From: a virus
IMG/VR virus record: IMGVR_UViG_3300036791_000724
Span: 1 to 39,806 of that record
Strand: one strand, 5' to 3'
Length of the DNA stretch: 39,806 nucleotides
In this document: piece after piece, positions 1-39,806 of the stretch
Layout of the letters: the number at the start of each line of letters is the position of its first letter
Numbering within the stretch: the first letter of the stretch is position 1
Translations under genes and position numbers: made by a program
Notes under the pieces: generated by a model
Databases searched by the model: none
What the model saw: the letters and a program-made list of their open reading frames with translations, nothing else
What the model was told of the DNA's origin: nothing

Positions 1-127
1 AAACCAAATCGCCAATGATGCTCGCGGGCCGGGTGCCGTATGCGTTGCCGTTGATTCGCAGATTGCCCGGCGGATAGGGCCGCAAGTAGCGCGAGCGCGT
101 GGTCAAATCGTTTTCGAGCGCGTCGCT
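1..127. repeat. Direct terminal repeat, left copy (circular-assembly overlap)
   Basis: These 127 bases are identical to bases 39680-39806. They lie inside the coding sequence of the tail-tip gene, and the reading frame continues perfectly when the two ends are overlapped. A 127-base overlap is what a de Bruijn assembler with k=127 leaves on a closed circle. The repeat is therefore more likely an assembly mark of a circular or circularly permuted molecule than a biological terminal repeat. The exact match is seen directly; the assembler explanation is inference. Confidence 0.95.
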
Positions 128-2428
128 GAGGGCGAACGTGCCGAGGTTGTTGCTCGGCAAAAATTTCGCCTTGACCGTGAGGTCGCCGCCGTATGCCTGG
201 GGTTGGGTGAATTGCTCGGCAAGCGTGAAAAAAAAGACGACCGCGCCTTGCGCATGGTCGGCGGGCACGGTGTCGAGCACGCCGCGCAAAATATCGGAAA
301 TCGCGACCGAGCCGTCGGGGTTAACCGTCTCGACGCGCCAACTAATGATTTCGTCGTCGACGAGCGCGAGGTTTGCGCCCGCAAATAACCCGGTGACATC
401 GGTCGAGGTCAAACTCCCGAGGTCTGCACCGCTCGCGTCGATAGTGAATCCAGTCGCGTCGCGGGCGAGCGTGGCCGCGGGATAGAGGGCGGTGAGCAGG
501 CCCGCCGGGCAAAAATTAAAGAGGTCGTTGGTGAGCACGTCGCCCGCGCCGAAATCCTGCCAAACCTCGAAGTCGGTCGGCGTGGCATCTTGCCGCGAGC
601 AGAGCGCGTACACCCACAAACCGAGGGTGAGCCCGCTTATTGTGCTCACGCGCGCATAGGGAGCCTCACAGAGCCGCTGAAAAATCGGGGCAAGGGGTTC
701 GCCCACGGGATTCACCCATCCGCTCGGCGGCGGGGCTGTAAAGGCCGCCGCGGCGATGCCGAAAACGTCCTCGACCGCCTCGATGGTAATTTTGCCGTCG
801 GTGAGTTGGCCGTAACCGATTTTTGAAATGCGGAACACGAGGGCATTGATACCGAGCGGGGCCCAAGTGAATTTGAAAACGCCGTTTTGCCGCCATGCCC
901 ACGCGACGCGATTGGTCGTGAGGGTGAGTTTGCCGAGCGGATAAGACATCGGCTTAATTGCGCGCATGGCCGTCAACGTGGCCGCGTTGCCGTTCGATAG
1001 CATTTTGAAATCGAGGGTTTGCGCGCGGGTCTCGCCCGTCACGACGACATTTGCGAGGTCGTGCGCTTGCACCGTGCGCACGTTGAAATCGGCGTCGCGG
1101 TCGAGGTATTGCACGAAAACTTGATTGATAGTTTCGCGCCATTGTGCCCGCGAAAATTTCGGCGTGTCGAGCACGTTGTCGACGGTGAGCACGGGAATCG
1201 TCGACGGGTCGTAGTCCGCGCGAGTCAATTTGAGCGTCCATAATCCGGTCGTGGGCTCGACGTACAGCACCCCGTCAATGTGCCGCAAGATTTCGGAAAT
1301 GTTCGAATCGCCCGTCGCGTCTTGGTCGAAGTTGACCGAGATGCCGATTTGTTCCGCGGCGAGCGTCGTCGCGGCGCTTTTGAAACTGTCCTCGTCGACG
1401 AGCAGAGGCGAAACGCCCAAGCCGTAGTCGACATTCGTGAGTAAATCGTAAATCGCGAATGGGGCATTGGCGTCGGCGCTTCCATCGCTCGCCTGATTCA
1501 GTTGCGCGATGCTCGGGCCCATGCCAAACGGGTCGGGGCATCGCCGCAAAACAAAATTGATGGGTTTCGGATAGCTCGACGTTCCCACATAAAATTGCTT
1601 GAGCACCGCGTAGCAGAGTTTCGGATAGCTCGGCGACACGCGCGACGGCGTCGTCACGATGGTGAATTGGTCGCCGATAACGAAAGGAATCGACCCGGTC
1701 GTGATGAGGAAATTGATTTTGGTCGACGAAAACGAGACCGAGGCCCAAGCGTCGCCAATGTGCCCGGAGACCGACCCGACGACGTGAAATTTCATTTGGT
1801 GCAAGAACGTGTCGAAACTGTAGGCGGTTATCGTGATGGTCTCGTTAAGACTCAACGTGCCCGCGGCGATGAATGCGAGGTATCCGTTGCCCGAGCCCGA
1901 ATAGGTCGGGATGCTCGGCAAAGCGGTTTGTTTCGCCGACAAGTACGGGTCGCTCCCCTGTGTGCCGCGGCCAAAGTAAAAATTGATTTCGCCTTTGAGA
2001 CCGCCCGCGGAATGGTCGCCGCCGTAGAGTTTGGGCATGTTTACCGTGAGCACCGTCGGGTCGGTGCCGCTCGCGGTGTACTCGACGTTTTTGCTGTCCG
2101 ATTCCATGCTGATAAGCGCGTCGACCGGGCCTTGGCAGAGCACGTATTGGACGCCGATGTAATAGCGGTATCCGATGAGCGTTTGCGCGAGGTAGAACGT
2201 GCCGAGGTTGCCTTGCATGATGGGCACGCTTTTCAAGTCGCCCCACCAAACGACATTGCCGCCCGTCTGATTCACCGTGCCGTAAATCACAGGAATCGGG
2301 CGGCCCTCTTCGGCGGTCGGGAAACTGAAATTGCCCAAACCGTCGGGGCGATTTTTTTGCCGCGAGGCGAGCAGAGCCGACGCGAAATTCACGGCAACGG
2401 TGAGCGCGAGCATAATCCAGAAAAACAT
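1..2428 (-). CDS. Tail tip / host-specificity protein J-like, N-terminal 809 codons (cut by window end)
   Basis: The gene starts with ATG at 2428, directly after the TAA of the BR0599-like gene (TAAATG), and stays open to base 1. Joined through the 127-base overlap it continues to a stop at 39321, giving one 928-residue protein. The N-terminus is a hydrophobic segment (about residues 1-20), followed by the GRPIPVIYGTV motif typical of J-type tail proteins. A region around residues 320-490 (YDLLTNVDYGLG, then a stretch reading VLYVEPTTGLWTLKLTRADY) matches the Phage-tail_3 style of hub and host-specificity proteins. The protein should form the distal tail tip that contacts the receptor. Its position after tape measure, minor tail and gpL-like genes matches lambda H-M-L-J order. 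The domain assignment is from memory of the family, not a search. Confidence 0.85.
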   Translation of the reverse strand, partial: MFFWIMLALTVAVNFASALLASRQKNRPDGLGNFSFPTAEEGRPIPVIYGTVNQTGGNVVWWGDLKSVPIMQGNLGTFYLAQTLIGYRYYIGVQYVLCQGPVDALISMESDSKNVEYTASGTDPTVLTVNMPKLYGGDHSAGGLKGEINFYFGRGTQGSDPYLSAKQTALPSIPTYSGSGNGYLAFIAAGTLSLNETITITAYSFDTFLHQMKFHVVGSVSGHIGDAWASVSFSSTKINFLITTGSIPFVIGDQFTIVTTPSRVSPSYPKLCYAVLKQFYVGTSSYPKPINFVLRRCPDPFGMGPSIAQLNQASDGSADANAPFAIYDLLTNVDYGLGVSPLLVDEDSFKSAATTLAAEQIGISVNFDQDATGDSNISEILRHIDGVLYVEPTTGLWTLKLTRADYDPSTIPVLTVDNVLDTPKFSRAQWRETINQVFVQYLDRDADFNVRTVQAHDLANVVVTGETRAQTLDFKMLSNGNAATLTAMRAIKPMSYPLGKLTLTTNRVAWAWRQNGVFKFTWAPLGINALVFRISKIGYGQLTDGKITIEAVEDVFGIAAAAFTAPPPSGWVNPVGEPLAPIFQRLCEAPYARVSTISGLTLGLWVYALCSRQDATPTDFEVWQDFGAGDVLTNDLFNFCPAGLLTALYPAATLARDATGFTIDASGADLGSLTSTDVTGLFAGANLALVDDEIISWRVETVNPDGSVAISDILRGVLDTVPADHAQGAVVFFFTLAEQFTQPQAYGGDLTVKAKFLPSNNLGTFALSDALENDLTTRSRYLRPYPPGNLRINGNAYGTRPASIIGDLV

Positions 2429-3220
2429 TTAGGAGATGGCCTCGGTGAATGGATTCGTTATCGGCGTCAAATCAAAGCCGAGAAAATTCGGCACGTTGTT
2501 GTATGCCTGACAAGCCGCATAGGTTAACTGGCAACCGGGCACGGCCTTGTAAGCCGCGCCCGCGGCGAGGCCCGCGATGGGCGCGAGCAGGGTGATGGTA
2601 TTGCCCGCGTGGGTGACAATCATGCGAAATTCGTTGCCGACTTTGAAATATCCCGCGGCCAAACTGAACGGCAATCCCACAAATCCCGCCGACGTGACGG
2701 TGATGCCGTCGGCGCTCACGGTCGCGACCGTGCCCGTCGAGGCGAGCGTGTCGATATTGATGCCGCACCCCGCGTCGCCGAAAATATGCACACACGGCAT
2801 CTGAAAGCCTTGCTTGGGCACGCGGCGCTGTAAAATGTAGGCATCGGAGTTAACTGTCATATCGCACATATCGTCGAACGTGGCGCTCGCGACCGTGCCT
2901 TGGAAAAGCAAAACGACCTCGGGGTCGCCGAAATGCCCGCCGAAAACCTGTAGCGTCATGGGCGAGGGCGTGAGGTACGGAATGAGCAATTGCGCGACCG
3001 CGTGGGCATTCGGGAGTTTGACGTGCATTTGCCCGGTCGTGACCTCGTTCGAGTACTCGAATTCGGTGCGCTCCAAAGTCGTTGGCTCATAGGTCGCGCC
3101 TAAATAATTTATCGCTTGGTCCGAGCTCGTGAGGAAAAACGTCGCGCCCGCGGTCACGAATTTGAATAGCTCGAACGCTTGCGCGCTCGCGGTCGATTGT
3201 TCTTGCGCGTCGTAGCTCAT
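2429..3220 (-). CDS. Minor tail protein with BR0599/DUF2163-type C-terminus (gpL-like)
   Basis: A 263-residue protein. The start is ATG at 3220, which overlaps the stop of the upstream gene as ATGA. The C-terminal half has the spaced cysteines of the phage BR0599 / lambda gpL family: MPCVHIFGDAGCGIN (two Cys), then about 70 residues later PGCQLTYAACQAY (two Cys) and NFLGFDLTPITNPF. In lambda gpL four cysteines bind an iron-sulfur cluster at the tail tip. The same four-Cys spacing here makes that plausible but unproven. It lies between the distal minor tail gene and the J-like gene, as gpL does in lambda. Confidence 0.75.
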   Translation of the reverse strand: MSYDAQEQSTASAQAFELFKFVTAGATFFLTSSDQAINYLGATYEPTTLERTEFEYSNEVTTGQMHVKLPNAHAVAQLLIPYLTPSPMTLQVFGGHFGDPEVVLLFQGTVASATFDDMCDMTVNSDAYILQRRVPKQGFQMPCVHIFGDAGCGINIDTLASTGTVATVSADGITVTSAGFVGLPFSLAAGYFKVGNEFRMIVTHAGNTITLLAPIAGLAAGAAYKAVPGCQLTYAACQAYNNVPNFLGFDLTPITNPFTEAIS

Positions 3221-4935
3221 GGAACCTCGCGCGGTAATTCGGAAATTTCCAGCGTGGTTTGCGCCAAGTCGTTGTTGAGCCACTCGATTGTGGCCTCGTC
3301 GGCATCGAGCCGCGCAAAAACCAAAAACGAAACCATCGTGCGCGTCGCGTGAAATATTTTCCCGACGGGTGAATCAAAACCGAGCGTTTCGGTGCCGTCG
3401 CCGTTGTCGACGCTCGACGTGATTTGCCGATAAACGTTGCCGCTTTGGTCGGTCGGTATCATGGCAACGTAGCGCCGCGCTTTGTCGGGAAACATAAAGC
3501 GCGTATAGAATTCGCTCGCGATTTTGATGCCCGTGTCGGTCGCGGTCGTGTCTTGCACGAGCACGAGGTCTTGGTCCCAAGTCGGAATCCAGAAAGGCCG
3601 GAAACGTCCGAATCGCGCGAGCAGGAAAGCGCGCAAATTCGTAACCTGCGAATGACTGAGCATGAGCGACGGGAAAGGTTGCGACGTGATGGGCGTGCCG
3701 CCCTTGTCGATAACCGAAATCGGGCCCGCGCCTGGGTCGAGCGTCACGAGCGAGCGGTTGTAGTTGCGTTTCTGATTCGACGGCCAATTGGCCGGGATTT
3801 CGAGCACGTCAAAGCCGCGGTATTGCGTGAGCGAAATCGTGGGCGTCGGCGCGACTTGTTGCGCCTCGCCGGAAAAGTCGACGGAAATTTCGTCAATGCC
3901 GCTGCACAGTCGGTCGACGGAAATGCCTTTCGGCAAGCGCCCCAAAAAAACCGGGAGCACGAGCACGCCCGGGCCCGCGCTCCAATTGAGTTGGGTGGGA
4001 TTCGCGAGCGTGACCGAGCCCGCGGTCAATCCCGAAATCGCGAGGGCCTCGAACGTGAAAGCGTCTTTCCAAATCGCGCAAATCCCGCCGACCGCAAATT
4101 GGCGGTCGACGGTGTTGCAAAGAATCGTGAGCGAGCCCGCCGCGGCGTCGGCGAGCAACGGGGTCACATCCGGCCACCAAGGCACCCCATAGGGTTGATT
4201 CTGCCAACCCCAAATTTGCGACTCCATCGCCGCGGCCTCGCGCGCGGTGAGCCCGCTCGCTTTGAACGCCATCGAGCGCCGGGCGAGTTGCCGCAAAGCG
4301 CGGCGTTGCTCGGCGTCCGAGTATGCCTGTAGCACGTCGGTCAAATAGCCGATGCGCTCGCTCGCGCCGCTTTCCCAATCAATCGCCGGAGAAAATAAAA
4401 CGATGCGATTGCCCGTGACCGTGACGCATGTGCCGCCGATGCCGCTCACAAACGCGAAACAAATTTCCGAGGCGATATTCGGCGCGCCGCTGCGAGGCAC
4501 GAGGACTTGATAGGTGCGATTCTCAAGCGCCGCGTAGTAGGTCGGCAACGGGAAAGGATTCGCAACCGTCAAATCGCCCACGCCGCTCACCGCAATCGAA
4601 TCGAGAATTTGCGCGACGTTGCGAAATGTGTTCCACACGTCGACGGTGAATTGCGTGTCGGTGATGATGAAACCGAGTTTGGCGTCTATCGGGTTGAGGA
4701 TGATTTTCTCGAAGAGTTGGCCGCCGAAAAGTTCGGCAAACGCGCCCGAGCGATTGACGGGCGCGGTCGTCGTGAGATAGGTGCCGCGATTCGCCGCCGC
4801 GAGCGCGCCCGAGTTGACATGCACGCCCACGCCCGCGGTGAAACTAGCGTCGGCGATGTCCGTCGAGAAATTCTTCGGCGGAATCTGTACGAGCCAAAAC
4901 GGCAAAAGGTCCAATCCTGCGAAATCGGTCGGCAT
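3217..4935 (-). CDS. Minor/distal tail protein
   Basis: A 572-residue protein starting with ATG at 4935, four bases after the stop of the preceding gene, with TGAGACA just upstream. The N-terminal region is beta-rich. The middle has an Ala/Arg-rich helix (EQRRALRQLARRSMAFKASG). The C-terminus contains LLARFGRFRPFWIPTWDQDL, a sequence style often seen in siphophage minor tail proteins. Position between the paralogous structural genes and the gpL-like gene argues for a baseplate or distal tail role. I do not recognise a named family with certainty. Confidence 0.65.
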   Translation of the reverse strand: MPTDFAGLDLLPFWLVQIPPKNFSTDIADASFTAGVGVHVNSGALAAANRGTYLTTTAPVNRSGAFAELFGGQLFEKIILNPIDAKLGFIITDTQFTVDVWNTFRNVAQILDSIAVSGVGDLTVANPFPLPTYYAALENRTYQVLVPRSGAPNIASEICFAFVSGIGGTCVTVTGNRIVLFSPAIDWESGASERIGYLTDVLQAYSDAEQRRALRQLARRSMAFKASGLTAREAAAMESQIWGWQNQPYGVPWWPDVTPLLADAAAGSLTILCNTVDRQFAVGGICAIWKDAFTFEALAISGLTAGSVTLANPTQLNWSAGPGVLVLPVFLGRLPKGISVDRLCSGIDEISVDFSGEAQQVAPTPTISLTQYRGFDVLEIPANWPSNQKRNYNRSLVTLDPGAGPISVIDKGGTPITSQPFPSLMLSHSQVTNLRAFLLARFGRFRPFWIPTWDQDLVLVQDTTATDTGIKIASEFYTRFMFPDKARRYVAMIPTDQSGNVYRQITSSVDNGDGTETLGFDSPVGKIFHATRTMVSFLVFARLDADEATIEWLNNDLAQTTLEISELPREVP

Positions 4936-4939
4936 TGTC

Positions 4940-5941
4940 TCACTGCTTTACAACTGCGAAATTCGGAAACATTTTGTAGGTCGTCGTTCCGAGTACGTAT
5001 TCGGATGCATTCGAAAAACCGATGCCGACGCCGTTGCTCCAAAAAATATTCGGAATCCACCCGAGCAGGGAAACCGCGCCGCTATCGCGTTGCGCAAACA
5101 TAAGCACGGGCAACAAATTCGCGCGACCATCCGCCGAGCTCGTTTGATTGACTTGCCAAGCGTTACGCGGGCCCGAGGCGAGGCCGTCGGTATAGCGCGG
5201 AGCGACGAAAAGCGGGTTGCCGCCTTGCGATGGCGGGCCGACCGCGCTTTGTACAAACTTGCCCGTGTAGCCCCATGACGCGCCGCCGTTGTTGTTGCCC
5301 ACGGCGAGCCAATTTCCGGTGAACGTGTCGACATCGGCGCGCACGAAACAATTTTGCGATTGGTTGAAATCCCAACAACCCGGACAAGCCGAGGTGTCGG
5401 TCACGCCATACGCGGGCGACGGAAATGTCGCGCCGAATCCGCTCGTGCTCCCAAAAAAATATGCGCCGCCGGGCGTCCATGCGCCCGCTTTCACGAGTTG
5501 ACCGAATCCCAAATGATTGTAGACCGCGGGCGTTTGCTCGATGACGAGCACGACGTTGTCGCCTGTCGCGTCGCCGAAAAAATAATAGTTTTGAATCGAG
5601 CCCGCCGGGAGTGCCGCGGCGACGCCGACGTTATAGGTTTGCCCTTGCGCGATGGGCCCGCCCGCTTGTGATTTCCAGTCGGAACCGCTCGCGAATCCCG
5701 AGCCGCAGTACATCGCGATACCGTAACCCGCGCGCCACATCCCGCCGCCCCAAATCGTGCCGCCGGATTCATTCATAAACGCGCGCAAGTTTACAAAGTT
5801 GCCGCTCTTGTGCAGGTGCGCGCGCCATCCCGCGCCGTCCGACTGGCTCATATCTTGCGTCCAACCTATCGACACGAGCCACGTCACGATGGTTTGCAAC
5901 AAGTTAATCGGCGAGGTCGCCGTTCCGGTTTGGTAGGACAT
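4940..5941 (-). CDS. Minor tail protein (paralogue of the gene at 5956-7146)
   Basis: A 333-residue protein from ATG at 5941, 14 bases after the stop of its upstream neighbour. It begins MSYQTGTATSPINLLQTI and the neighbouring protein begins MSWATGTATDHADLLNKL. Both end with a related block (IGFSNASEYVLGTTTYKMF versus ITGFSNGSENTVTIGNAKY). They are tandem paralogues of different length. The sequence is aromatic and Gly-rich with many Trp, as in virion surface beta-structures. Placement directly after the tape measure indicates a tail component. The ribosome binding site is weak (GAAAGCGAG). Confidence 0.65.
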   Translation of the reverse strand: MSYQTGTATSPINLLQTIVTWLVSIGWTQDMSQSDGAGWRAHLHKSGNFVNLRAFMNESGGTIWGGGMWRAGYGIAMYCGSGFASGSDWKSQAGGPIAQGQTYNVGVAAALPAGSIQNYYFFGDATGDNVVLVIEQTPAVYNHLGFGQLVKAGAWTPGGAYFFGSTSGFGATFPSPAYGVTDTSACPGCWDFNQSQNCFVRADVDTFTGNWLAVGNNNGGASWGYTGKFVQSAVGPPSQGGNPLFVAPRYTDGLASGPRNAWQVNQTSSADGRANLLPVLMFAQRDSGAVSLLGWIPNIFWSNGVGIGFSNASEYVLGTTTYKMFPNFAVVKQ

Positions 5942-5955
5942 CGCGCGCTCGCTTT

Positions 5956-7146
5956 CTAAATCAATCGCACCGCGGCGAAATCGTTTTGCCCGTTGCGGAA
6001 AACATTTTGCACGACCATGTATTTCGCGTTGCCGATAGTGACGGTATTTTCCGAGCCGTTCGAAAATCCGGTGATGGCCGCGAGGCCGTCGAGCTCGCCC
6101 CAAATATTCGGTACGGTCGGATAGCAGTCGCCGAGCACGATGGGCAAGAGGGCATAAGAGCCATCGAGATTCGTTTGCCAATTGCCCCACGCGCACATAT
6201 ACGGCCAAATTTTCCCGCACGGGTCCGCCGAGCTCGAATCGTTTTGCCGCTCGAATGAGTGCCAGATTCCCGCGGGCGTGCGCATTTGCAAGCCGCTCGA
6301 ATTTTCCACGTTGATATTGCCCGGGCAACCGTGCGAGGGGTTTTGCATTTCGTTGCCCGTGTAACTCCATCGCCAGTTGGCGCTCGTGGCCGCGGGCTCG
6401 GCACCTATCCATTGCAGGTTGCCGCCGACAATCAAAGGGTAGGGGAAAATCGCCGGGCTCACGTATTGCGACAAAAACCCCAAATAGCCCATGACGTAAA
6501 CAGACGATACCTTAGCAATAAAGATAACTCGACGGCCGCTCGCTATAAACCAGTAGGGCATGGGATTGTTCCAAAGTGTCGTCACGGGCGAGGCATGAAT
6601 TTGCCCGCCCGGGCCGCCGATGTATCCCGCCTGATTTTCGAATGCGAGCGCCGCGTCGAATGCGGTGAAACCGCCGAGCCGCCAATTGTAATAGTCGCCT
6701 GTAGAGTTGGAAAAAACTTTCGCGCCGACGAGGATTTCGCTCGTGCCGCCGTCGCCGGGCGCTTGCCAAATCATCTCAAGGCCCGCAGAGCGCCGCATCG
6801 AGGTCCACTTGGGCGCGGTCGAAAACGTCCAAGCATCGCCCGAGACAAACGCGGTCGAGCCCGCGGTGATAAGAAAATTCACTTTGGAATTCGCGAACGC
6901 GGTGCCGACGGTGCCCGTGCCGAGCGAGCCCGAGCTCGACCCGGTCACGGTGAACGCGGTCGACGAGGTCATGGCGACGGTAATGTTTTCCGCGATGCTC
7001 GACGCGCCGCCGATGAGCGCCGAAATAATTCCGTTGCCCGTGCCCGTGTAGGTCGGATTCGTCGCCATTCCTTGAGCGGTCAAGAATGTATCGAGTTTAT
7101 TCAGCAAATCCGCGTGGTCGGTTGCTGTGCCCGTTGCCCATGACAT
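5956..7146 (-). CDS. Minor tail protein (MSW-TGTATD type)
   Basis: A 396-residue protein from ATG at 7146, with AAAGGAG nine bases upstream inside the end of the tape-measure gene. The opening MSWATGTATDHADLLNKLDTFL occurs in structural proteins encoded after tape measures in many siphophages. The remainder is Gly, Ser, Trp and Asn rich. Residues about 30-110 contain an inserted beta-rich stretch (NITVAMTSSTAFTVTGSSSG, then GSTAFVSGDAWTF) that the shorter downstream paralogue lacks. A similar stretch (KINFLITTGSIPFVIGDQFT) occurs in the J-like protein, suggesting a domain shared between virion proteins. Confidence 0.65.
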   Translation of the reverse strand: MSWATGTATDHADLLNKLDTFLTAQGMATNPTYTGTGNGIISALIGGASSIAENITVAMTSSTAFTVTGSSSGSLGTGTVGTAFANSKVNFLITAGSTAFVSGDAWTFSTAPKWTSMRRSAGLEMIWQAPGDGGTSEILVGAKVFSNSTGDYYNWRLGGFTAFDAALAFENQAGYIGGPGGQIHASPVTTLWNNPMPYWFIASGRRVIFIAKVSSVYVMGYLGFLSQYVSPAIFPYPLIVGGNLQWIGAEPAATSANWRWSYTGNEMQNPSHGCPGNINVENSSGLQMRTPAGIWHSFERQNDSSSADPCGKIWPYMCAWGNWQTNLDGSYALLPIVLGDCYPTVPNIWGELDGLAAITGFSNGSENTVTIGNAKYMVVQNVFRNGQNDFAAVRLI

Positions 7147-7147
7147 G

Positions 7148-9469: not shown

Positions 9470-9470
9470 G

Positions 9471-30434: not shown

Positions 30435-30451
30435 CATTTCGGGCTAGTACC

Positions 30452-30781: not shown

Positions 30782-30793
30782 GTCGGTCTCGTT

Positions 30794-31309: not shown

Positions 31310-31737
31310 CAAAACCTTTCGAAAATTTCGAGGATTTGTTGGAGCTCACTATCGCTTTCGTAAAAGACATGGAAAGCCGCATCGCCGCGTAGAGAAACGC
31401 CCGCGGCGACCTCGGCGAGCATCGTCGCTCGTCGATTCGGGCGGGCGTTAACGCCGTGAACGGGGCAATTTGCTTCGTTATCGACGAGCAAAAACGCGGT
31501 GCGGGCGAATTCCTCGCCATCGCCTTCGGTTGCGTGGATGATGGCCGCGGCGTCGCGGTATTGGGGTGGAAAATTGCTCGGGCGGCGCGCTCGGACCATG
31601 ACCGGAATTCCGCCTAAGACATTGCGCCAATCGAGTTTGCTTAACTCGAATGCATTGCGAACGATTTCGAGGCGGTCGTCGGCCCGCATGACAATCGCCG
31701 CGCACCGGATAGCAGGCCCTAAAACTATTGTGCTCAT
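31309..31737 (-). CDS. Unknown early protein
   Basis: A 142-residue protein from ATG at 31737 with TGAGG upstream, the TGA being the stop of the DUF2303 gene. It has alpha/beta character: MSTIVLGPAIRCAAIVMRAD, then AFLLVDNEANCPVHGVNARP and FHVFYESDSELQQILEIFER. No family recognised. It is co-transcribed between the DUF2303 gene and the clamp-motif gene. Confidence 0.6.
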   Translation of the reverse strand: MSTIVLGPAIRCAAIVMRADDRLEIVRNAFELSKLDWRNVLGGIPVMVRARRPSNFPPQYRDAAAIIHATEGDGEEFARTAFLLVDNEANCPVHGVNARPNRRATMLAEVAAGVSLRGDAAFHVFYESDSELQQILEIFERF

Positions 31738-31746
31738 GGCTCGGCC

Positions 31747-32505: not shown

Positions 32506-32541
32506 TTTTGGCCTCTTTTTTCCTTTCCGCGCCGTAGCGCG

Positions 32542-32901
32542 TCACATCACATCTTTTTTTTTGTCGTTTGCCGCGGCGCTCTTGCCGTCCGTCGCTTCAA
32601 ACAAGCGGGATTGTTTGGGGTCGTGCGGAATCGCGATGAAATTCGTGCCTTTGCGCGATAGGAACATCATTCCGTTCGCCGCGTTGACGGGCGCTTGCTT
32701 GGATTTGCACGCGAAAATTATTTTGGCGCCGCTGCGGTCGTCGAACGGTTCGAAGGTAAATTCAAAAGTGATTTTGCGTTTTGCTTCGGCGTCGGTGTTT
32801 ACGTCGGCGATATTTTCCAGCACATAGGCGAGCTCGCGCTGGAAAACCTCTTCGACGGCACCGTTACAAATATTGTCGAGCGTGATTTGTTCCGGTTCCA
32901 T
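32542..32901 (-). CDS. Conserved phage protein (often labelled replication-terminator-like)
   Basis: A 119-residue protein from ATG at 32901 with TGAAAGGAAAAA directly before it. The pattern NGAVEEVFQRELAYVLENIA, then DVNTDAEAKRKITFEFTFEP is a well conserved phage family found just upstream of DUF2303 genes. Some databases label it a replication terminator protein, without evidence known to me. It is beta-rich with a polar, Lys-rich end. Confidence 0.6.
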   Translation of the reverse strand: MEPEQITLDNICNGAVEEVFQRELAYVLENIADVNTDAEAKRKITFEFTFEPFDDRSGAKIIFACKSKQAPVNAANGMMFLSRKGTNFIAIPHDPKQSRLFEATDGKSAAANDKKKDVM

Positions 32902-32910
32902 TTTTTCCTT

Positions 32911-33049
32911 TCATTGCGGGATTTGCGGCGCGCCGGGTTTGTCTTTGCTCGGCGGCGTGGGTTTGTATTTGTCGCCGACTTTGGTCGGGTCGGCGGGCTT
33001 GTTGCCCGCGGTCGGCGGCGGCGATGGCGGTGTCGACGGCGTCGACGGG
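32911..33049 (-). other. Pro-rich open extension in +1 frame after the Fn3 gene
   Basis: Immediately after the Fn3 stop, the +1 frame reads NPSTPSTPPSPPPTAGNK, then ADPTKVGDKYKPTPPSKDKP and ends GAPQIPQ-stop. The stop is followed at once by the ribosome binding site of the next gene, the arrangement seen at real gene ends here. The frame has no start codon of its own. It is either a programmed +1 frameshift product, the remnant of a recent frameshift, or a one-base assembly error. Confidence 0.5.
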
Positions 33050-33574
33050 TTAAATAACCGTTGCGGAAAATCCTGTTGGCGGTAGTGGTTTAGTAGGTAC
33101 GGGAAGATTCACCAAAACGGAAAGAATCGTCGAGGGGTCGCTCTCGACTCCGCTTGGGCCGACCGCTGTCACGAAATAACACCGCGTCACACCGTTCGGA
33201 ATTCCGGGGCCGTCGGTGAACGTGAGCACCGTGAGGCCCGTGGAAATCACGAAAAATTGCGAGACCGGAGTCGCCGCGCAATTCGGCGGTTCGGGGTTGC
33301 CGGGTTGCCCGCCGAATTTGTAAACGTTGTAGGTGAGCGGGCTCGGTTGCGCGGGCGGAACCGTTTCCGGCGGAATCGGCGCGGGCGGTTGCGGCGCAAC
33401 CCAAACGAGCTTGACCGAGTGCGTCGTGCCCGTTGAGTCGGTCGGTTTGGGTTGCTCGGGTCGTTTCAATCCTTTGTACTGCTCGTTTTCTTTCGCTTCT
33501 CTTTCTTTTTTTTCTTGCGCCGCGAGTGGCAGCGCAAACACCGCAATCGCAAAAAGCAAATACAGTTTTCTCAT
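33050..33574 (-). CDS. Secreted fibronectin type III-like protein
   Basis: A 174-residue protein from ATG at 33574 with AAAGGAAAAA upstream. A classical signal peptide (MRKLYLLFAIAVFALPLAAQ) has a likely cleavage site after LAA. A charged segment follows, then a single Fn3-type domain (THSVKLVWVAPQPPAP, LTYNVYKFGG, GVTRCYFVTAVGPSGVESDP). It would be exported by the lysogen or infected cell, so it may be a moron acting at the cell surface. After the TAA at 33050 a +1 shift opens a Pro-rich tail ending at 32911; see findings. The style is common in Acidobacteriota. Confidence 0.7.
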   Translation of the reverse strand: MRKLYLLFAIAVFALPLAAQEKKEREAKENEQYKGLKRPEQPKPTDSTGTTHSVKLVWVAPQPPAPIPPETVPPAQPSPLTYNVYKFGGQPGNPEPPNCAATPVSQFFVISTGLTVLTFTDGPGIPNGVTRCYFVTAVGPSGVESDPSTILSVLVNLPVPTKPLPPTGFSATVI

Positions 33575-33613
33575 TCTCGTTTTTCCTTTCGGTTTTTTGG
33601 TGGGCCGGAAAAT

Positions 33614-33805
33614 CTATCGCTCCTCTTCGGGGATGTGGTCGCTTACCTGAGTTATTTTTTCGAGCAAACTGTGTTCGACGAGCTCGTATACCGCGACCTC
33701 GGTCGGGCCGTCGCCCTCGACCGCGTCGGCGTTTGTCGAGAATGCTTCGAGGCACTCGGTATCCTCGTCACACATCCGCACGTAGATTTTTTTCGGGAAT
33801 TCCAT
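33614..33805 (-). CDS. Small acidic protein, unknown
   Basis: A 63-residue protein. ATG 33805 is chosen because AAAGGAAAAA lies upstream. It reads MEFPKKIYVRMCDEDTECLE, then GDGPTEVAVYELVEHSLLEK. The DGPT-VAVYELV string recurs in small phage proteins of unknown function. It overlaps the upstream regulator gene by 38 bases in another frame. Confidence 0.6.
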   Translation of the reverse strand: MEFPKKIYVRMCDEDTECLEAFSTNADAVEGDGPTEVAVYELVEHSLLEKITQVSDHIPEEER

Positions 33806-34082
33806 CGTCGTTTTTCCTTTCGGGTTGTTTCCGCCGGGCGAGCGGGATGCGCACGCGCGGTCGAAAATTTTGGTAGATGTCCTCAAGCGAGATTCGAAAA
33901 CCGGAATCCCGCGCGAGCTCGCGAATCTCGAAAGCCGTCGAGGGTGACGGTGCCGCGACGCCGCGGAGCCAGTGGTAGACCGCTTGCGGGCTCACATCGA
34001 GTTGCTCGGCGAGCGTGGCCGTGCCTATTTGGTCGACAAACCGCCCGAGCTTCGATTTCCAGCGTTCGTCAATCGCGCGCAT
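33768..34082 (-). CDS. Cro/CI-like helix-turn-helix regulator
   Basis: A 104-residue protein from ATG at 34082 with AAGGGGAA upstream, overlapping the previous gene by 14 bases. Residues about 20-70 (IGTATLAEQLDVSPQAVYHW, then LRGVAAPSPSTAFEIRELAR) are a lambda-repressor-type helix-turn-helix with a clear recognition helix. The C-terminus is Arg/Lys rich and has no dimerisation or autocleavage domain. It fits a Cro-like or early-gene regulator. Confidence 0.65.
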   Translation of the reverse strand: MRAIDERWKSKLGRFVDQIGTATLAEQLDVSPQAVYHWLRGVAAPSPSTAFEIRELARDSGFRISLEDIYQNFRPRVRIPLARRKQPERKNDDGIPEKNLRADV

Positions 34083-34413
34083 GGGTTTCCCCTTGTTTGG
34101 TTTTTTCGTCGCTCTGCGAGGCTGCAAATTGATTTGTCGGGGTTTCAGGCGAGCGCGGCCAAACGGTCGCGCCATGCCGGGCCGCCCATTCGCGACCGTG
34201 CCGCTCGCAATAGGTTCGCCGCGCGCGCGTAACCCGCCGGGTGAGCTTGCTCGATTCGTAGGTGTAGGTCGCCGCGTAGATGATGGGCTCGCGGCAAGGT
34301 TTCTTGGGAGACGACGACGAGCAGGCGACATATCCGCGCGCTCGAAGATGCTCGTAGTGTTTGAGGTCGTTTTCGCTGAGGGGAATTAGTTCGAAATCCG
34401 TCGCCGTTGACAC
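34069..34413 (-). CDS. Unknown early protein beside attP
   Basis: A 114-residue protein from a GTG at 34413 without a clear ribosome site. It begins MSTATDFELIPLSENDLKHY and has cysteines in VACSSSSPKKPCREP and TYCERHGREW. The C-terminus is polar. No family recognised. It is the first gene downstream of the attP-like region in the leftward direction. Confidence 0.5.
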   Translation of the reverse strand: MSTATDFELIPLSENDLKHYEHLRARGYVACSSSSPKKPCREPIIYAATYTYESSKLTRRVTRARRTYCERHGREWAARHGATVWPRSPETPTNQFAASQSDEKTKQGETHARD

Positions 34414-34452
34414 CGTTGCACGCTCAATTCCGCGGCGGTGTTAGCGCCCCGC

Positions 34453-34641
34453 GTGTAACCGCGTGTAACTAGCACCGTTGCTTTGAGCGTTATGGCTGCA
34501 ATTGCGAGAATGTAGAATCTATAACTTACGTGCTTTCAATACCTGCACTGAGTTCGAATCCCACCCTCTCCGCCAACCATAACGCCCTTTCTTTTCTACA
34601 ACCTAAAAAAATCGCGCGCGCGCCGTGTAACTTGGCGTAAC
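34453..34641. other. attP region: tRNA-Ser 3' end core with flanking repeats
   Basis: The core 34552-34575 on the plus strand is the T-loop to CCA end of a bacterial tRNA-Ser gene (GTTCGAATCCCACC, then CTCTCCGCCA). No matching 5' half (GGAGAGG) exists upstream, so it is not a tRNA gene. Around it lie GTGTAAC at 34453-34459, 34463-34469 and 34625-34631, and GCGTAAC at 34635-34641, arranged like integrase arm sites. A 9-base inverted repeat GCGTTATGG / CCATAACGC at 34487-34495 and 34577-34585 brackets the core. Tyrosine integrases commonly use tRNA 3' ends as attachment cores. The site is 1.1 kb from the integrase gene. Confidence 0.75.
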
Positions 34642-34823
34642 TGGCCCCAAAAGGAAAGCGAAACCGTCCTCGGCTTGAGCCAGTAGCCGCCGCCGGGTCT
34701 CTTCGCGTCCGCGATTGCCCTGTCGATTCGCGCGCCCATGTCGAAACATTCGTGGTCGTGATACTCGTCGAGCGAAAAACAAACCCGGTGACAGCGCGGG
34801 CAAACTCTTTCGCGGTAGGTCAT
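34596..34823 (-). CDS. Small zinc-binding-type protein, module copy B
   Basis: A 75-residue protein from ATG at 34823, overlapping the previous stop (ATGA). The N-terminus MTYRERVCPRCHRVCFSLDE followed by YHDHEC supplies Cys8, Cys11, Cys15, His22, His24 and Cys26, a likely zinc site. The C-terminus is basic. It is the second gene of a two-gene unit that resembles the unit just upstream. Its 3' end holds two of the arm-type repeats of the attP region. Confidence 0.55.
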   Translation of the reverse strand: MTYRERVCPRCHRVCFSLDEYHDHECFDMGARIDRAIADAKRPGGGYWLKPRTVSLSFWGQLRQVTRRARDFFRL

Positions 34824-35035
34824 ACGGCCTCGACGCGGACGCGCTTGCGCTCGCAGAAATCGACGTAGCCGCCGCGACGGTACTTCGCCGCCAAAAGTTC
34901 CCAATAGCCGCCGAGCTCGCCCTCAAACGCGAGGTACAGGCGTTGCCCGTCACGCGACGCGCGGAGCACCTTGCCGACGACCGTTTGGCCTTTGAAAGAG
35001 ATTTTCACCGCTTGCCCTTTGCGAAAAATCTGCAT
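34820..35035 (-). CDS. Small beta-barrel-like protein, module copy B
   Basis: A 71-residue protein from ATG at 35035, with GAGG 11 bases upstream. It reads MQIFRKGQAVKISFKGQTVV, then YLAFEGELGGYWELL and ends DFCERKRVRVEAV. It is clearly homologous to the product of 35232-35453 (shared IF-KG--VK, G-TV, AS--G--L-L-F, GGY, VD--E, VR-EA). The pattern of short strands suggests an SH3-like barrel. Function unknown. Confidence 0.65.
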   Translation of the reverse strand: MQIFRKGQAVKISFKGQTVVGKVLRASRDGQRLYLAFEGELGGYWELLAAKYRRGGYVDFCERKRVRVEAV

Positions 35036-35037
35036 AG

Positions 35038-35235
35038 CTAAAAAAACCTCGGTTGCTTCTGGTCGGCGGCGATTCTTTCGCGCCGCTTCGCTTGTGACTT
35101 TGTGAGCATCTGAACCGTGTGCTCTAAACAATGCGCGAGCCGACCGCCGGAAACGGCGTGCCGGGTGATTCGCCTACATTTGCGGCAAAACTCTGTTGTT
35201 TCCGTAGTCGCCTTGGTGTAGTGCTCGTGTCTCAT
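35038..35235 (-). CDS. Small zinc-binding-type protein, module copy A
   Basis: A 65-residue protein from ATG at 35235, overlapping the previous stop (ATGA). TTEFCRKCRRITRHAVSGGR followed by LAHCLEH gives a Cys-x2-Cys ... His ... Cys ... His pattern of a small zinc finger; similar short proteins occur in many phages. The tail is basic (KSQAKRRERIAADQKQ). It pairs with the barrel-like gene upstream. Confidence 0.6.
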   Translation of the reverse strand: MRHEHYTKATTETTEFCRKCRRITRHAVSGGRLAHCLEHTVQMLTKSQAKRRERIAADQKQPRFF

Positions 35236-35453
35236 GCGGCCTCGATTCGCACGGGCCTTTGCTCGAATAGGTCGACGAATCCGAGCTCGTCGTTTGCGCA
35301 CATCACGGGCATCATGCCGGGATAACCGCCGACCATCGCATCGAATTGCAGCATGAGCGACCGCCCGTTGCCCGACGCGAGCATCACGACGGCCCTCACC
35401 GTGCGCCCGCCGAGCGTGACCTTGACAAATTCGCCTTTCAAAAAAATCCGCAT
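35232..35453 (-). CDS. Small beta-barrel-like protein, module copy A
   Basis: A 73-residue protein from ATG at 35453 with GAGGCG upstream; an in-frame upstream ATG at 35519 would put the terminator hairpin inside the gene. It reads MRIFLKGEFVKVTLGGRTVR, then SLMLQFDAMVGGYPGM and ends DLFEQRPVRIEAA. It is a paralogue of the product of 34820-35035. It is the first gene after the integrase terminator. Confidence 0.65.
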   Translation of the reverse strand: MRIFLKGEFVKVTLGGRTVRAVVMLASGNGRSLMLQFDAMVGGYPGMMPVMCANDELGFVDLFEQRPVRIEAA

Positions 35454-35481
35454 CGGTCGCCTCGTTCCAAAATGGAAAATA

Positions 35482-35502
35482 GGCGGGCAAACTTCGCCCG
35501 CC
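35482..35502 (-). terminator. Terminator after the integrase gene
   Basis: On the minus strand a perfect 7-bp stem GGCGGGC / GCCCGCC with a 7-base loop is followed by TATTTTCCATTTT. It would end integrase transcripts before the duplicated small-gene module. The 223-base gap 35454-35676 also contains a 13-base inverted repeat GCGGCCTCGGTCG (about 35572 and 35649) of unknown role and no convincing gene. Confidence 0.6.
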
Positions 35503-35676
35503 CATTCGCTCCTCTTCACCGCCCAAAATGTCGGTGCCCGCGCCCCGGCGGCCCGGCACGTCGAGCGTTTGCGGCCTCGGTCGTGGTAGGCATCCGCTCG
35601 GACGCGCCCCGCGTGCCCTCGCGTGACGCGCCGCTCGACGGTTTAATCCTCGACCGAGGCCGCAATTTTTTGCCCA

Positions 35677-36888
35677 CTAGTTAACTCCCTTGCCCGAATG
35701 CCGCCGCGTGTCGCGCGGAGCGTCGAGCATCGCGAGCACGGGGTCGTTGCGCCAAGTGTCGCGCACCGCCTCGTCGATTCGTTTTTGTTTGGCTTCGCTG
35801 TGCCCGCTGTAATGCTTCTGCACGACGGCGAGCGTGTCGCCGAGCGCGTCGGCGACATCTTGCAACGTTTTGCCGGGTTGCTCAAGCAACGAAATCGCGA
35901 ACGTATGCCGAAAGCGGTGCGCATGGCCGCCGACGATGCCCGCGCGTTTGAATAGGCCGGACAAGTACGCTTGATAGTCGCCGACCCGCGAGGTCAAAAG
36001 TTTGGTGCCGCGCCAGAAAAAATACTCTTCGCTTTCGCGTGGGATTTTGGCGAGGGCGTCGGTCACGACCTGGGGCAATTGCACCGATACCGCGCTCTTA
36101 TTTTTGCCGCAGGTTAGAAAGACGCGCCCGTTTTGAATCGCGGCCACAGGGCAACCGACCGCGTCCGAAATCCGCAGGCCCGAATACCGCAGAAACAAAA
36201 CGAGCGCCTGAGTGCGGAGCGCGTTTGCCTTTCTGTCGGGTTGCGCGGCGCGCACGATGTCTTTCGCCGCTTGCTCTAAAATTTGAAATTGCTCGCGGGG
36301 CTCAAAGCCTTTTTTCTTGGCCGTGGGCACAGGCCGCAAAGTGATTTTGCTCGTCGGGTCTTTGGCAATCCAGTCGCGATTGAGGGCGAATTTGAAAAAT
36401 TGCCGCAGGTTTTCGGTTTTCTTGTTGGCCGCGAGATGACTGTCGCGAATGATGCGGCCCTCGCGACCGCGGCGCGTATCCTCGCGGTCGTTCGAAAACC
36501 ATGTGCGAAAGTCGGCGACCAAATCCGGGTCGACTTGGTCGACATAGGTCGCACGACGGCGCGCGGCAAACGCGAGGAATTGCTTGTGCAAGGTTTTTTG
36601 TTTGCGCACGCGCTCTTTGCTGCGGTGCTTGGCGTCGGGGTCGGCGAAGAATGCGGCGCTCGCATCGGCGAGGGTGATTTGCTTGAGCGGTCGCGCGGCC
36701 ACGATTGCGCCGCCCGAGGCGAGCTCGGCGATTTGCATGAGCGCGACGTTCCAATCGGTCGTGCGCAAGTTGCGCGGATTTTTGAGCGGCGAGCCGTCGG
36801 CCCAAATCGGGCAATCGCATTTCCAATGCTTCGATTTGAGCGGGCGAAATTCGCACGCGCGGACATGCCGACGATAGGGGTTTATCAC
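35677..36888 (-). CDS. int: Tyrosine integrase
   Basis: A 403-residue protein from a GTG at 36888 with AGGGGG upstream. A Cys-rich N-terminus (ACEFRPLKSKHWKCDCPIW) precedes an arm/core-binding region. The catalytic residues are Arg239 (RYSGLRISD), Lys264 (CGKNKS), His324 and Arg327 (HAHRFRHTF) and Tyr360 (VVQKHYSGHSE). The usual His/Trp just before the Tyr motif is Asp351 (ALGDTLAVVQ), a variation known in related integrases. It should recombine the attP-like site at 34552-34575 with a host tRNA-Ser gene. It is encoded with the small helix-turn-helix gene 10 bases upstream. Confidence 0.93.
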   Translation of the reverse strand: MINPYRRHVRACEFRPLKSKHWKCDCPIWADGSPLKNPRNLRTTDWNVALMQIAELASGGAIVAARPLKQITLADASAAFFADPDAKHRSKERVRKQKTLHKQFLAFAARRRATYVDQVDPDLVADFRTWFSNDREDTRRGREGRIIRDSHLAANKKTENLRQFFKFALNRDWIAKDPTSKITLRPVPTAKKKGFEPREQFQILEQAAKDIVRAAQPDRKANALRTQALVLFLRYSGLRISDAVGCPVAAIQNGRVFLTCGKNKSAVSVQLPQVVTDALAKIPRESEEYFFWRGTKLLTSRVGDYQAYLSGLFKRAGIVGGHAHRFRHTFAISLLEQPGKTLQDVADALGDTLAVVQKHYSGHSEAKQKRIDEAVRDTWRNDPVLAMLDAPRDTRRHSGKGVN

Positions 36889-36898
36889 TGCACACCCC

Positions 36899-37138
36899 CT
36901 AGTTGTTGCGCCGCTTCAATTTTTCGATAACTCGCAAGATGGCCGCCTCGGGGATGAGCAACGTGCGCTTGCTGCGTTTGCCGCGGCGCGCTGAGGTCAA
37001 AACGACGACGCCGTCCTCGTACTCGAATAGCTCGATTACTTTGGTGCGCGACAGGCTGAGCCGTTGCGCGACTTCTACGACGCGATACATCTGCGGAACC
37101 GCCGACATTTTCTCGTCGTGCTCGTGCTCGGTAATCAT
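36899..37138 (-). CDS. Excisionase-like helix-turn-helix protein
   Basis: A 79-residue protein from ATG at 37138. Residues about 17-65 (MYRVVEVAQRLSLSRTKVIE, then LLIPEAAILRVIEKLKRR) are a MerR/excisionase-type winged helix. It sits directly upstream of int and shares the promoter at 37202-37230. It could be the recombination directionality factor or a regulator of int. Confidence 0.7.
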   Translation of the reverse strand: MITEHEHDEKMSAVPQMYRVVEVAQRLSLSRTKVIELFEYEDGVVVLTSARRGKRSKRTLLIPEAAILRVIEKLKRRNN

Positions 37139-37570
37139 AATGCTCGCCTTGCTTCGTCATTTTGCGCCCGTATCCTTTCGAGTGATTTGCCTACTCAAAA
37201 GAGTATAAACCAAGCGCCTTGGTATGTACAGACCGCGAGTGCGCGGTAAGTACATGCCGCCGACGACCGTGCCTAAACTTTCGCGAGGGAAAAACAAGGG
37301 CCCCAGAGTGGGAGAAGAGTAGTTGGCCCGTGTCCCGCGGAATTGCTCGATTGCATTAATTATCGCAATTCCGTTTGAGACCATAGTCGCACTAAAACGC
37401 GCTGTCAAGATGCAAGCGCGAGGGTGCGCCGGGATACAATTGTGGAAATCCTGTAACGATTTAATACGATTGACAGAGGGTGACGTGCAAATCGCCAATG
37501 TTTACGCGGCAATGGCGAGTACTAGCAGCGCCCACACTTTTCAACAGTGTTTTCAAAAATTGGTTAAAAT
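37139..37570. other. Noncoding control region upstream of the integrase unit
   Basis: This 432-base gap separates the end of the late genes from the integration module. Besides the promoter at 37202-37230 it holds an imperfect 13-base inverted repeat (TGTACAGACCGCG..., 37225-37255), a second good minus-strand promoter match TTGACA-N17-TATGGT at about 37410-37382, and an inverted TCGCCA/TGGCGA pair near 37490-37517. No coding frame looks real. It probably carries the main control elements for lysogeny and the late-operon end. Confidence 0.5.
37202..37230 (-). promoter_or_regulatory. Promoter/operator of the integrase unit
   Basis: On the minus strand TGTACA (37230-37225) and TATACT (37207-37202) are 17 bases apart. 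The spacer contains a perfect palindrome ACCAAG-CGC-CTTGGT (37209-37223) and ends TTGGTTTATACT, identical over 12 bases to the leftward promoter at 23420. A repressor bound here would block int expression. Confidence 0.6.
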
Positions 37571-37720
37571 TTACTCGCTTTTGACATTTTTTTCTGATTC
37601 GGGTTTTCTGGTATGCCGCTGCACCCACTCGACGGAAAGCGTGATGAGCGCCCCGGTTATCATCCCGAGCAGAAAATCAAAAAGCGCGCCGTGTAACGGC
37701 CAAGACTGGGTATCAAACAT
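37571..37720 (-). CDS. Single-span small membrane protein
   Basis: A 49-residue protein from ATG at 37720 with GAGG upstream; the TGA of the previous gene lies eight bases before. One hydrophobic segment (ALFDFLLGMITGALITLSVEW) is followed by a basic then charged tail (QRHTRKPESEKNVKSE). Pairing with a two-span membrane gene just upstream suggests a lysis or membrane-disruption role, which is unproven. Confidence 0.55.
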   Translation of the reverse strand: MFDTQSWPLHGALFDFLLGMITGALITLSVEWVQRHTRKPESEKNVKSE

Positions 37721-37728
37721 TTGTCGCC

Positions 37729-37923
37729 TCAGTGTGGCCCGATGCGAATGTTTGCGAGATTGGTCCACCCGAGCGTGATGAGCAGGAGCCAGAGAATCAG
37801 CATCACGACGACGAAACCATTTAGGATAGCTTTCACTTTTTCATCCATCGGCAAGAAACGATTCGCGAAGTAGAGCAACACGCCGACAACGATGATGACC
37901 AAAACGACTTGGATAATTGGCAT
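37729..37923 (-). CDS. Two-span small membrane protein (Thivi_2564-like), possible holin
   Basis: A 64-residue protein from ATG at 37923 with GAAAGGAAAAA directly upstream, right after the stop of the receptor-binding-type gene. It has two hydrophobic helices (IIQVVLVIIVVGVLLYFANR and LNGFVVVMLILWLLLITLGW) joined by a short polar turn (LPMDEKVKA). It resembles the short Thivi_2564-type membrane proteins. As the first gene after the tail block it is the best-placed holin candidate. Confidence 0.6.
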   Translation of the reverse strand: MPIIQVVLVIIVVGVLLYFANRFLPMDEKVKAILNGFVVVMLILWLLLITLGWTNLANIRIGPH

Positions 37924-37938
37924 CGGTTTTTTCCTTTC

Positions 37939-39324
37939 CTAAAAACATTCGAGATAGGCCGCATAAATTTTCAGGTGCAGGCCGCCCGTACTTCCGGGGA
38001 TTTGGCACGCCGCGGCGATGCGCGCCGCGAGGCTCGCGACATTCGTGCCGCTCGGGATTGCAAGCGTCTTGGTTTGCCGCGCGACCGCGCCGCCGCCGGG
38101 TGCCGCGGAGTCGAGCACGGTTTCCGTCGAACCAATCCACCCCGCGACTTTCCACGCGGGGATGGTTTGCGAGGGCGCGACCAAATCGTTTTGCGTGATT
38201 TCATAATCGACGACGAGGTTTGCGCCGCCGCCGCCGACGTTGCCCGTCATGCCCTCGACGAGCACGAGGACCTCGTCGCCCGTCGAGCCCGCGCAAATCA
38301 ATTCCGCGAATGTCGTGTCGTTGCCGTCAATGATGTTCGCCGGGTTCAAACACTGCCCGGTGTAAATGTGATAGTCCGCGGTGAGCACGGTGCTGTCGTC
38401 ATAGGTCGCGGTCGCATCGTGCGCGAAAGCCTTGAGCGTGAGCGGAACCGCGACCGAAATCGGCGACGAATAAAGCGTCGACGCGGTCGTCGGCGTCGAG
38501 CCGTCGAGGGTGTAATAAATCGCGAGGCTTTCGGCGTTGGTGAGCACGACCGATTGAGCCGCGGGATAGGTGCCCGGGCCGGGCGTCGCGACGGGCGTGC
38601 TCGCCTTGACGTGCATCGAGACGAATTGCGCGACCGTGCCGAGGGCCTTCCAGCGTATTGACGGGAAGGAAAGCGCCGGGTAAGCGAGCGCCGTGTCGAG
38701 CTTGTCGAACGTGGTCAACGAGCCAAACCAAAAGAATTCCGCGCCGCCCGTGGTCGTCGAGCCCGTATCAATTGGCGTCGCATTTTTCGCGGATTCGCGT
38801 TCGGTGAATCCAGTCGTCGAGGTCGTCGGCGTGTCGCCCTCGCTATTCTCGGCGAACGAAACAAAATTGTAGGAGTTGCCCGTGTAACCGTTGTTGACGA
38901 ATGGCGCGGTGAACGTGAGCGCGGTGTCGCCCGGGTTTGCTTCGGTGTGCGAAAGCGAATTCAAATACAGAATTTCGCCGCTATCGGGCGAGACCTCATG
39001 CACGCTAAGAAACAATGCCCCGGTCGCGGGTGCGGTCGCGGTGAATCCGGTGAGCCCGCCCGCGACGGGCGATTTTGAAAACATCGTAACTTGCAAGTCG
39101 CCCGAGCTCGACAAATTGCGCGAATAAAACGGCGCGACCGGATTCAAGGCCGAATCTTTCAGCGTGAGCGAGACGGGCGAATTCGTTGCGGAAAAATTCG
39201 TCGCATCGAACCATGACGCGACCGCGACGATGAGATTGCCCGCGGTCGTCGGGCTCGGGAGCGTGACCGAAACACTCGTGCCGCTCAAGACAAACGCGCT
39301 TTTGCTTTGTACGAATGCGGTCAC
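37939..39324 (-). CDS. Receptor-binding/tail fibre-type protein with chitobiase-like domain
   Basis: A 461-residue protein from a GTG at 39324, overlapping the tail-tip stop (GTGA). Residues 1-250 are a beta-sandwich of the type also found at 12588-13265 (AGNLIVAVASWFDA, LFLSVHEVSPDSGEI). Residues about 255-325 match the chitobiase/beta-hexosaminidase C-terminal module (ATPGPGTYPAAQSVVLTNAE, then IYYTLDGSTPTTASTLYSSP). Residues about 330-461 begin NPANIIDGNDTTFAEL, like F5/8-type discoidin domains. Three surface-binding modules directly after the tail-tip gene indicate host recognition or adhesion. Confidence 0.65.
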   Translation of the reverse strand: MTAFVQSKSAFVLSGTSVSVTLPSPTTAGNLIVAVASWFDATNFSATNSPVSLTLKDSALNPVAPFYSRNLSSSGDLQVTMFSKSPVAGGLTGFTATAPATGALFLSVHEVSPDSGEILYLNSLSHTEANPGDTALTFTAPFVNNGYTGNSYNFVSFAENSEGDTPTTSTTGFTERESAKNATPIDTGSTTTGGAEFFWFGSLTTFDKLDTALAYPALSFPSIRWKALGTVAQFVSMHVKASTPVATPGPGTYPAAQSVVLTNAESLAIYYTLDGSTPTTASTLYSSPISVAVPLTLKAFAHDATATYDDSTVLTADYHIYTGQCLNPANIIDGNDTTFAELICAGSTGDEVLVLVEGMTGNVGGGGANLVVDYEITQNDLVAPSQTIPAWKVAGWIGSTETVLDSAAPGGGAVARQTKTLAIPSGTNVASLAARIAAACQIPGSTGGLHLKIYAAYLECF

Positions 39325-39806
39325 AGGCTCAAATCTCCGGGTGTGGCGCTCGTGAATTCATAGCGACCGGGCGCGAGCGTGCCCGCCGCTTCCATTTGAA
39401 TCGTGAACGATTGCGCAAAATAACTGTCGCCCGCCGCGGTCGTCGAAAAGATTTCGACGACGACCGGATTGCTCAAAGCGGGGTCGTCGGTCAAGTGTTG
39501 ATTCGCGGTATAGGTAAACGGCGAGCTCGCCGGGTCGTAGGTCCGCGAAAAGGAAATCGCCGGAATCGAGACGACGACTTTGAACGTTTGCCCCGACTCG
39601 CCCGCGATGTCGGTTTGGTCTTGCGGAACCATCACGACGCCCGCGGTTTGCGTGAGCCGATTGCGCGAGCTCCACGTCAAAACCAAATCGCCAATGATGC
39701 TCGCGGGCCGGGTGCCGTATGCGTTGCCGTTGATTCGCAGATTGCCCGGCGGATAGGGCCGCAAGTAGCGCGAGCGCGTGGTCAAATCGTTTTCGAGCGC
39801 GTCGCT
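39321..39806 (-). CDS. Tail tip / host-specificity protein J-like, C-terminal part
   Basis: This is the C-terminal 161 residues plus stop of the protein that starts at 2428; the last 127 bases duplicate bases 1-127. The frame matches exactly across the circle junction. The residues (RSRYLRPYPPGNLRING, then a beta-rich stretch with SFSRTYDPASSPFTY) look like a terminal beta-sandwich, as expected for a receptor-proximal domain. The stop TGA overlaps the GTG start of the next gene (GTGA at 39321-39324), so translation is probably coupled to the downstream receptor-binding-type protein. Confidence 0.85.
   Translation of the reverse strand, partial: SDALENDLTTRSRYLRPYPPGNLRINGNAYGTRPASIIGDLVLTWSSRNRLTQTAGVVMVPQDQTDIAGESGQTFKVVVSIPAISFSRTYDPASSPFTYTANQHLTDDPALSNPVVVEIFSTTAAGDSYFAQSFTIQMEAAGTLAPGRYEFTSATPGDLSL
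39680..39806. repeat. Direct terminal repeat, right copy
   Basis: This is the second copy of the 127-base sequence at the left end, and again lies inside the tail-tip gene. Removing one copy gives a unique circular genome of 39,679 bases in which the tail-tip gene is uninterrupted. Confidence 0.95.

Follow-up and report, generated by a model that had tools for sequence, protein, structure and literature searches.

What removes every copy of a four-base word from a genome of almost 40 kb? We addressed this question for a 39,806-bp stretch of viral DNA (the window, IMG/VR record IMGVR_UViG_3300036791_000724), which a first-pass annotation of the letters alone had described as wholly lacking the palindrome GATC where about 140 copies would be expected by chance. 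A string search of the 39,806 bp returned no GATC, and the expectation proved to be 145.6 from base composition or 147.6 from a maximal-order Markov model built on the window's own trimers. The final 127 bp of the window are identical to its first 127 bp, as in a circular assembly, so the contig is a 39,679-bp circle plus overlap. On this circle, considering both strands, GATC occurs 0 times against 146.8 expected (Poisson P ~2e-64); the circle junction contributes no copy, and each half of the genome has none. GATC has the strongest deficit among the 136 tetramer classes and is the sole tetramer absent; the annotation had likewise reported that other palindromic tetramers are present. The next lowest palindrome, CCGG, stands at 0.59 of its Markov expectation. 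The site is also strongly under-represented against a null that preserves proteins and codon usage. Synonymous reshuffling of codons in 20 genes predicts 101 +/- 7 GATC sites, of which none is found, and control tetramers fit this model (CATG, 69 versus 72; AGCT, 51 versus 54).

The window is the complete circular genome of a siphophage with an integrase, from soil by our reading of the sample. The minus strand carries most of the genes that could be recognised (Table 1). The phage is probably temperate, judging from the presence in its sequence of both an integrase and a candidate tRNA-derived attachment site. A search of 329 Terriglobia genomes for spacers against the phage or integrated copies of it revealed no integrated copy; what matched were the tRNA-Ser sequence, fragments of distant prophages and short, weak hits. 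A PADLOC scan of ten window proteins identified no defence or anti-defence family, and no phage-encoded methylase was found in the window.

Table 1. Features of the window and the last remaining copies of three nearly eliminated palindromes.
Feature	Position	Strand	Remarks
Tail genes	2-11,114		
First half: tail, head and portal genes	1..19870		
Second half: terminase, early genes and integrase	19871..39679		
Sole remaining CGGCCG	6533..6538		~30 expected
Major head protein with protease region	15505..17655	-	phrog_617, E 2.8e-93
Portal protein	17652..19310	-	phrog_21, E 2.4e-110; used for comparing relatives
Terminase region	25,202-27,599		
Terminase large subunit (TerL)	25202..27121	-	phrog_15, E 5.5e-229; used to find and order relatives
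Sole remaining GCATGC	27473..27478		~13 expected
Sole remaining GGCGCC	32725..32730		~30 expected
Probable attachment site	34552..34575	+	Same 24 bp as the 3' end of tRNA-Ser genes of Terriglobia
Tyrosine integrase	35677..36888	-	phrog_1; PF00589 above its cut-off

The manner in which GATC sites were replaced indicates selection and not mutation. Where relatives have GATC, the window is mostly one base off, with the change at any of the four positions. Codon choice around potential sites is correspondingly strict: Asp codons followed by C are GAC in 98 cases and GAT in 0, as against 230 GAC and 114 GAT elsewhere, and ATC is used for none of the Ile codons preceded by G, as against 205 ATC codons elsewhere. 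The substitutions that did away with GATC sites are single, scattered and for the most part silent.

The removal of GATC appears to continue, because comparison with a close relative, G001, shows no new sites. With 874 substitutions between the two genomes, approximately 18.5 new GATC sites would be expected, a figure that is approximate because the null places the observed substitutions at random on matching bases and ignores codon constraint. None was seen, and control tetramers fit the same null.

We then compared GATC across the relatives of the window. The closest records are IMG/VR contigs, which, reading from their samples, we take to be from soil. G001, which matches the window at 92% of nucleotides across most of the aligned parts, lacks GATC (0 against 47 expected); G002 (84% TerL identity) has 37 against 35 (1.05x), G003 (74%) has 0 against 112, and G006 (72%) has 204 against 150. 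Most other relatives in the clade carry GATC at 1.5-5x expectation, the contigs L032, L033, L035, L037, L046, L048, L050, L052 and L075 reaching 4-5x the expectation from composition, and GATC spans from 0 to ~5x expectation inside one terminase clade. A TerL tree joins G002 to the window and G001 with support of 100 and puts G003 outside this group (support 80). GATC was either lost twice, or lost once and then regained; the two histories are indistinguishable because the G002 sites show no enrichment at positions common to outgroups (P 0.80 and 0.94). No relatives could be confirmed from scans of viral contigs that used the tail protein or the integrase as query. The proposal of long selection against GATC is therefore well supported, the loss being phage-specific, silent, apparently still maintained and subject to switching within one clade.

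We considered whether a methylase serves as an alternative to site loss, as a ParB-N6/N4 methylase lies near terL in many near relatives that carry GATC and is missing from the window. However, there is no clean association between methylase and GATC, because the GATC-richest clades show no methylase either. Separately, the GATC-free G003 encodes a D12-class methylase (L003:14336-15358; best solved match the DpnII methylase, E 1.7e-10) yet has no GATC for it to protect.

The annotation had described the loss of one tetramer, which is incomplete, as many palindromic hexamers are missing as well. Of the 31 testable palindromic hexamers with no GATC inside them, 14 are eliminated, compared with 5 of 1,448 non-palindromic hexamers. 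The deficit is one of restriction-like palindromes and not of similar words. It is most pronounced for CTCGAG (0 found, 33 expected), CGGCCG and GGCGCC (1 found, 30 expected for each), and extends to AGCGCT (0 of 14 expected), ACGCGT (0 of 12), CACGTG and CCATGG (0 of 11 each) and AGGCCT (0 of 9). The RCCGGY family (0 of 27 expected) and the asymmetric word GAAGAC (0 of 10) are also missing. CCGCGG, GAGCTC, GTCGAC and GAATTC are retained at expected counts, and palindromic hexamers are nearly all-or-none in the window. Synonymous shuffling flags 15 of 33 palindromic hexamers, 2 of which contain GATC. Both halves of the genome show the pattern: the eliminated set is found once against 98 expected in the first half and once against 86 in the second, and the retained set is found 319 times against 296 expected and 334 times against 329, respectively.

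The window itself supplied the expected hexamer counts and, for the most part, the eliminated list. An independent check is therefore provided by the gain of sites in the comparison with G001. For this purpose GCATGC, which is present in G001, was left out of the list and ACCGGT was added. Eliminated hexamers gained 1 new copy where 33.7 were expected, and retained hexamers gained 54 where 43.5 were expected. Elsewhere, most relatives have 0 or 1 hexamers eliminated, as has Terriglobia DNA; G003 comes second to the window in hexamer loss (6 of 28), with a list that is partly different. G006 (L096-L098) has a lost list of its own, comprising TCCGGA (0 of 29 expected), TTCGAA (0 of 13.5) and CGGCCG (2 of 34).

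Taken together, these results make it very probable that avoidance of restriction sites, under pressure from several Type II enzymes of which at least one recognises GATC, has shaped the genome. The hosts of the phage lineage would carry several such enzymes, GATC cutters included; genomes retaining a site would be cut upon entry, and the surviving lineages would swap each site, mostly through silent codon changes. The outcome would be a genome from which GATC and fourteen palindromic hexamers are gone or nearly so and from which new sites are still removed. The agents, we infer, are restriction enzymes, and the GATC-targeting restriction put forward at the outset is strongly favoured as the cause because unrelated palindromes were lost along with GATC. 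Several Type II enzymes predict the joint loss of unrelated palindromes with few non-palindromes, and explanations confined to GATC are therefore insufficient. Phages are known to shed restriction sites, and in about one in ten viral genomes the elimination is complete or near-complete. All 46 phages with hosts that encode the methyl-dependent enzyme have fewer GATC sites than expected; complete elimination is, however, rarer in temperate phages, which counts against restriction-site avoidance here (PMC6286503).

Which hosts could have supplied these enzymes? Among cellular genomes, just one yielded a close relative, a prophage with 73% TerL identity that lies in a metagenome-assembled genome (MAG) of Terriglobia (Acidobacteriota). 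As the nearest records are virus contigs and this one prophage, we infer the host class and propose Terriglobia-like Acidobacteriota of soil as the hosts; the match to tRNA-Ser ends adds little, because such 3' ends are widely conserved. DpnI homologues are present in 34 of 250 Terriglobia genomes, and the one that was checked is full length relative to the solved enzyme. A CcrM-like methylase adjoins the DpnI homologue at 4 of the 8 loci read; L147, L148, L149 and L151 have a Terriglobia DpnI homologue next to a CcrM-like adenine methylase. DpnII relatives are present in 6 of 399 Terriglobia genomes, with an adenine-methylase-like gene adjoining all six loci. The sole full-length DpnII-like gene in these 399 genomes (G282:C193; L138, L199, L220), which also adjoins an adenine-methylase-like gene, has an internal stop codon. 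MutH (PF02976) was found in 0 of 250 Terriglobia genomes, and the E. coli control was found. Judging by these homologues, the likely host class does possess GATC-directed enzymes, of the DpnI as well as the DpnII type, but neither type has a link to the phage. The search for hosts and relatives with GATC enzymes thus succeeded as to the enzymes and not as to a link with the phage, and the loss of GATC, which had been expected to help name the host, by itself names neither host nor enzyme. Two candidate links were rejected. G282, which carries the DpnII gene, is not favoured as a host of GATC-free phages, as GATC is at ordinary levels in the related prophage contig of that genome, and in base composition the phage is no closer to DpnI-positive than to DpnI-negative genomes.

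A narrower form of restriction-site avoidance, concerning GATC only, is an attractive special case. If hosts that cut methylated GATC and hosts that cut unmethylated GATC were both encountered, as in a DpnI/DpnII-type conflict, no methylation state would be safe and complete loss of GATC would be the sole escape. The presence of both enzyme families within the class Terriglobia, the lack of a methylase of the phage's own and the coexistence of alternative cassettes in pneumococcus (PMC12707154) are consistent with this. Yet nothing ties the phage to such hosts, its composition fits DpnI-positive genomes no better than negative ones, the only full-length DpnII gene is interrupted in a genome whose related prophage has ordinary GATC, and the lost hexamers are left unexplained, so that we regard this conflict as possible but rather doubtful. 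Escape from methyl-directed mismatch repair, in which host MutH cannot nick phage DNA that has no GATC, is much less probable still. It has a precedent in phiX174, which has no GATC and in which added sites lower the mutation rate, although the authors of that study doubt it as the sole cause (PMC5014478). MutH was absent from the Terriglobia genomes searched, a point that counts only if the host belongs to Terriglobia, and the loss of many unrelated hexamers would go unexplained.

A bias of mutation acting without selection, for instance deamination of a methylated base within GATC, is very improbable. The replacements do include C>T and G>A changes, which is nothing specific, but A>G is the commonest change in two comparisons. 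A bias at one base would not spread replacements over every one of the four positions and match them to silent codon choice; moreover, whole palindromes are lost, hexamers included. An inherited signature of the host or phage family is just as hard to credit. Word usage is often common to host and phage, but Terriglobia DNA has GATC at 0.7-2.7x expectation and most relatives have it in excess, and the absence is no lineage signature because relatives, including G002, which is nearer than G003, carry normal GATC. Least probable of all is a library or assembly artefact that removed GATC-bearing DNA. The sequence is indeed the contig of an uncultivated virus; however, the genome closes as a circle, its genes are long and intact, and metagenome 3300050821, the source of the GATC-free G003, also yielded L017, L018, L021, L022, L046 and L050, which carry GATC at 1.5-5x.

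Restriction-site avoidance of this kind is a known mechanism, seen in phages K, T7 and N4, and the window is an extreme case of it. Like the window, Staphylococcus phage K is without GATC, which has been credited to escape from Sau3AI (PMC6532042). In the 50 kb of phage K that we read, GATC occurs 0 times against 134 expected; unlike the window, phage K is virulent, its host is known and none of 29 palindromic hexamers is eliminated. Coliphages T7 (GATC, 6 against 155 expected; hexamers eliminated, 7 of 33) and N4 (over 40 kb, 1 against 145; 8 of 32) resemble the window more closely in that GATC is strongly depleted together with several palindromic hexamers, but they are virulent, retain a few GATC sites and have lost fewer hexamers, from a partly different list. 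Two distant terminase relatives, Pseudomonas phage ZRG1 (13 of 35 hexamers eliminated) and Roseobacter phage CRP-811 (9 of 25), have abundant GATC (623 against 168 and 195 against 126, respectively), so the spectrum of enzymes differs from that of the window. In lambda, 2 of 46 hexamers are eliminated. The parallel with phiX174, likewise wholly without GATC, is limited by the nature of that phage, which has a 5.4-kb single-stranded DNA genome and a host with Dam and MutH and for which mismatch repair has been proposed (PMC5014478). Plasmids provide a further likeness, as smaller plasmids and those of broader host range avoid 6-bp Type II targets more, although this is a statistical trend over many elements (PMC10359461). 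With 14 of 31 hexamers eliminated and no GATC, the window is the most extreme of the few phages compared, on a known scale; the set is small and hand-picked, and we therefore claim no rank among all phages.

What sets the window apart is how far an integrase-bearing phage has been purged, and the existence of purged and unpurged sister lineages. One tentative reading, which we consider a minority possibility, is that the phage moves among hosts with opposed GATC enzymes and a dozen six-base cutters, that its lineage purged every site, despite lysogeny, because methylation cannot protect it, and that its relatives switch as their hosts change. If this were true, one could read from the missing palindromes which restriction enzymes an uncultured host community possesses. 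The missing words predict the host specificities GATC, RCCGGY, CTCGAG, CGGCCG, GGCGCC, AGCGCT, ACGCGT, CACGTG, CCATGG, AGGCCT, GACGTC and ATCGAT, among others, which can be tested on soil Acidobacteriota. An integrase-bearing phage as purged as this one is also a useful counter-example to the rarer elimination reported for temperate phages (PMC6286503), and a clade with and without GATC among near relatives opens loss and regain to study. A separate, independent case is found in a distant terminase lineage (L067, L069 and L080), in which GATC and GTAC are both entirely missing.
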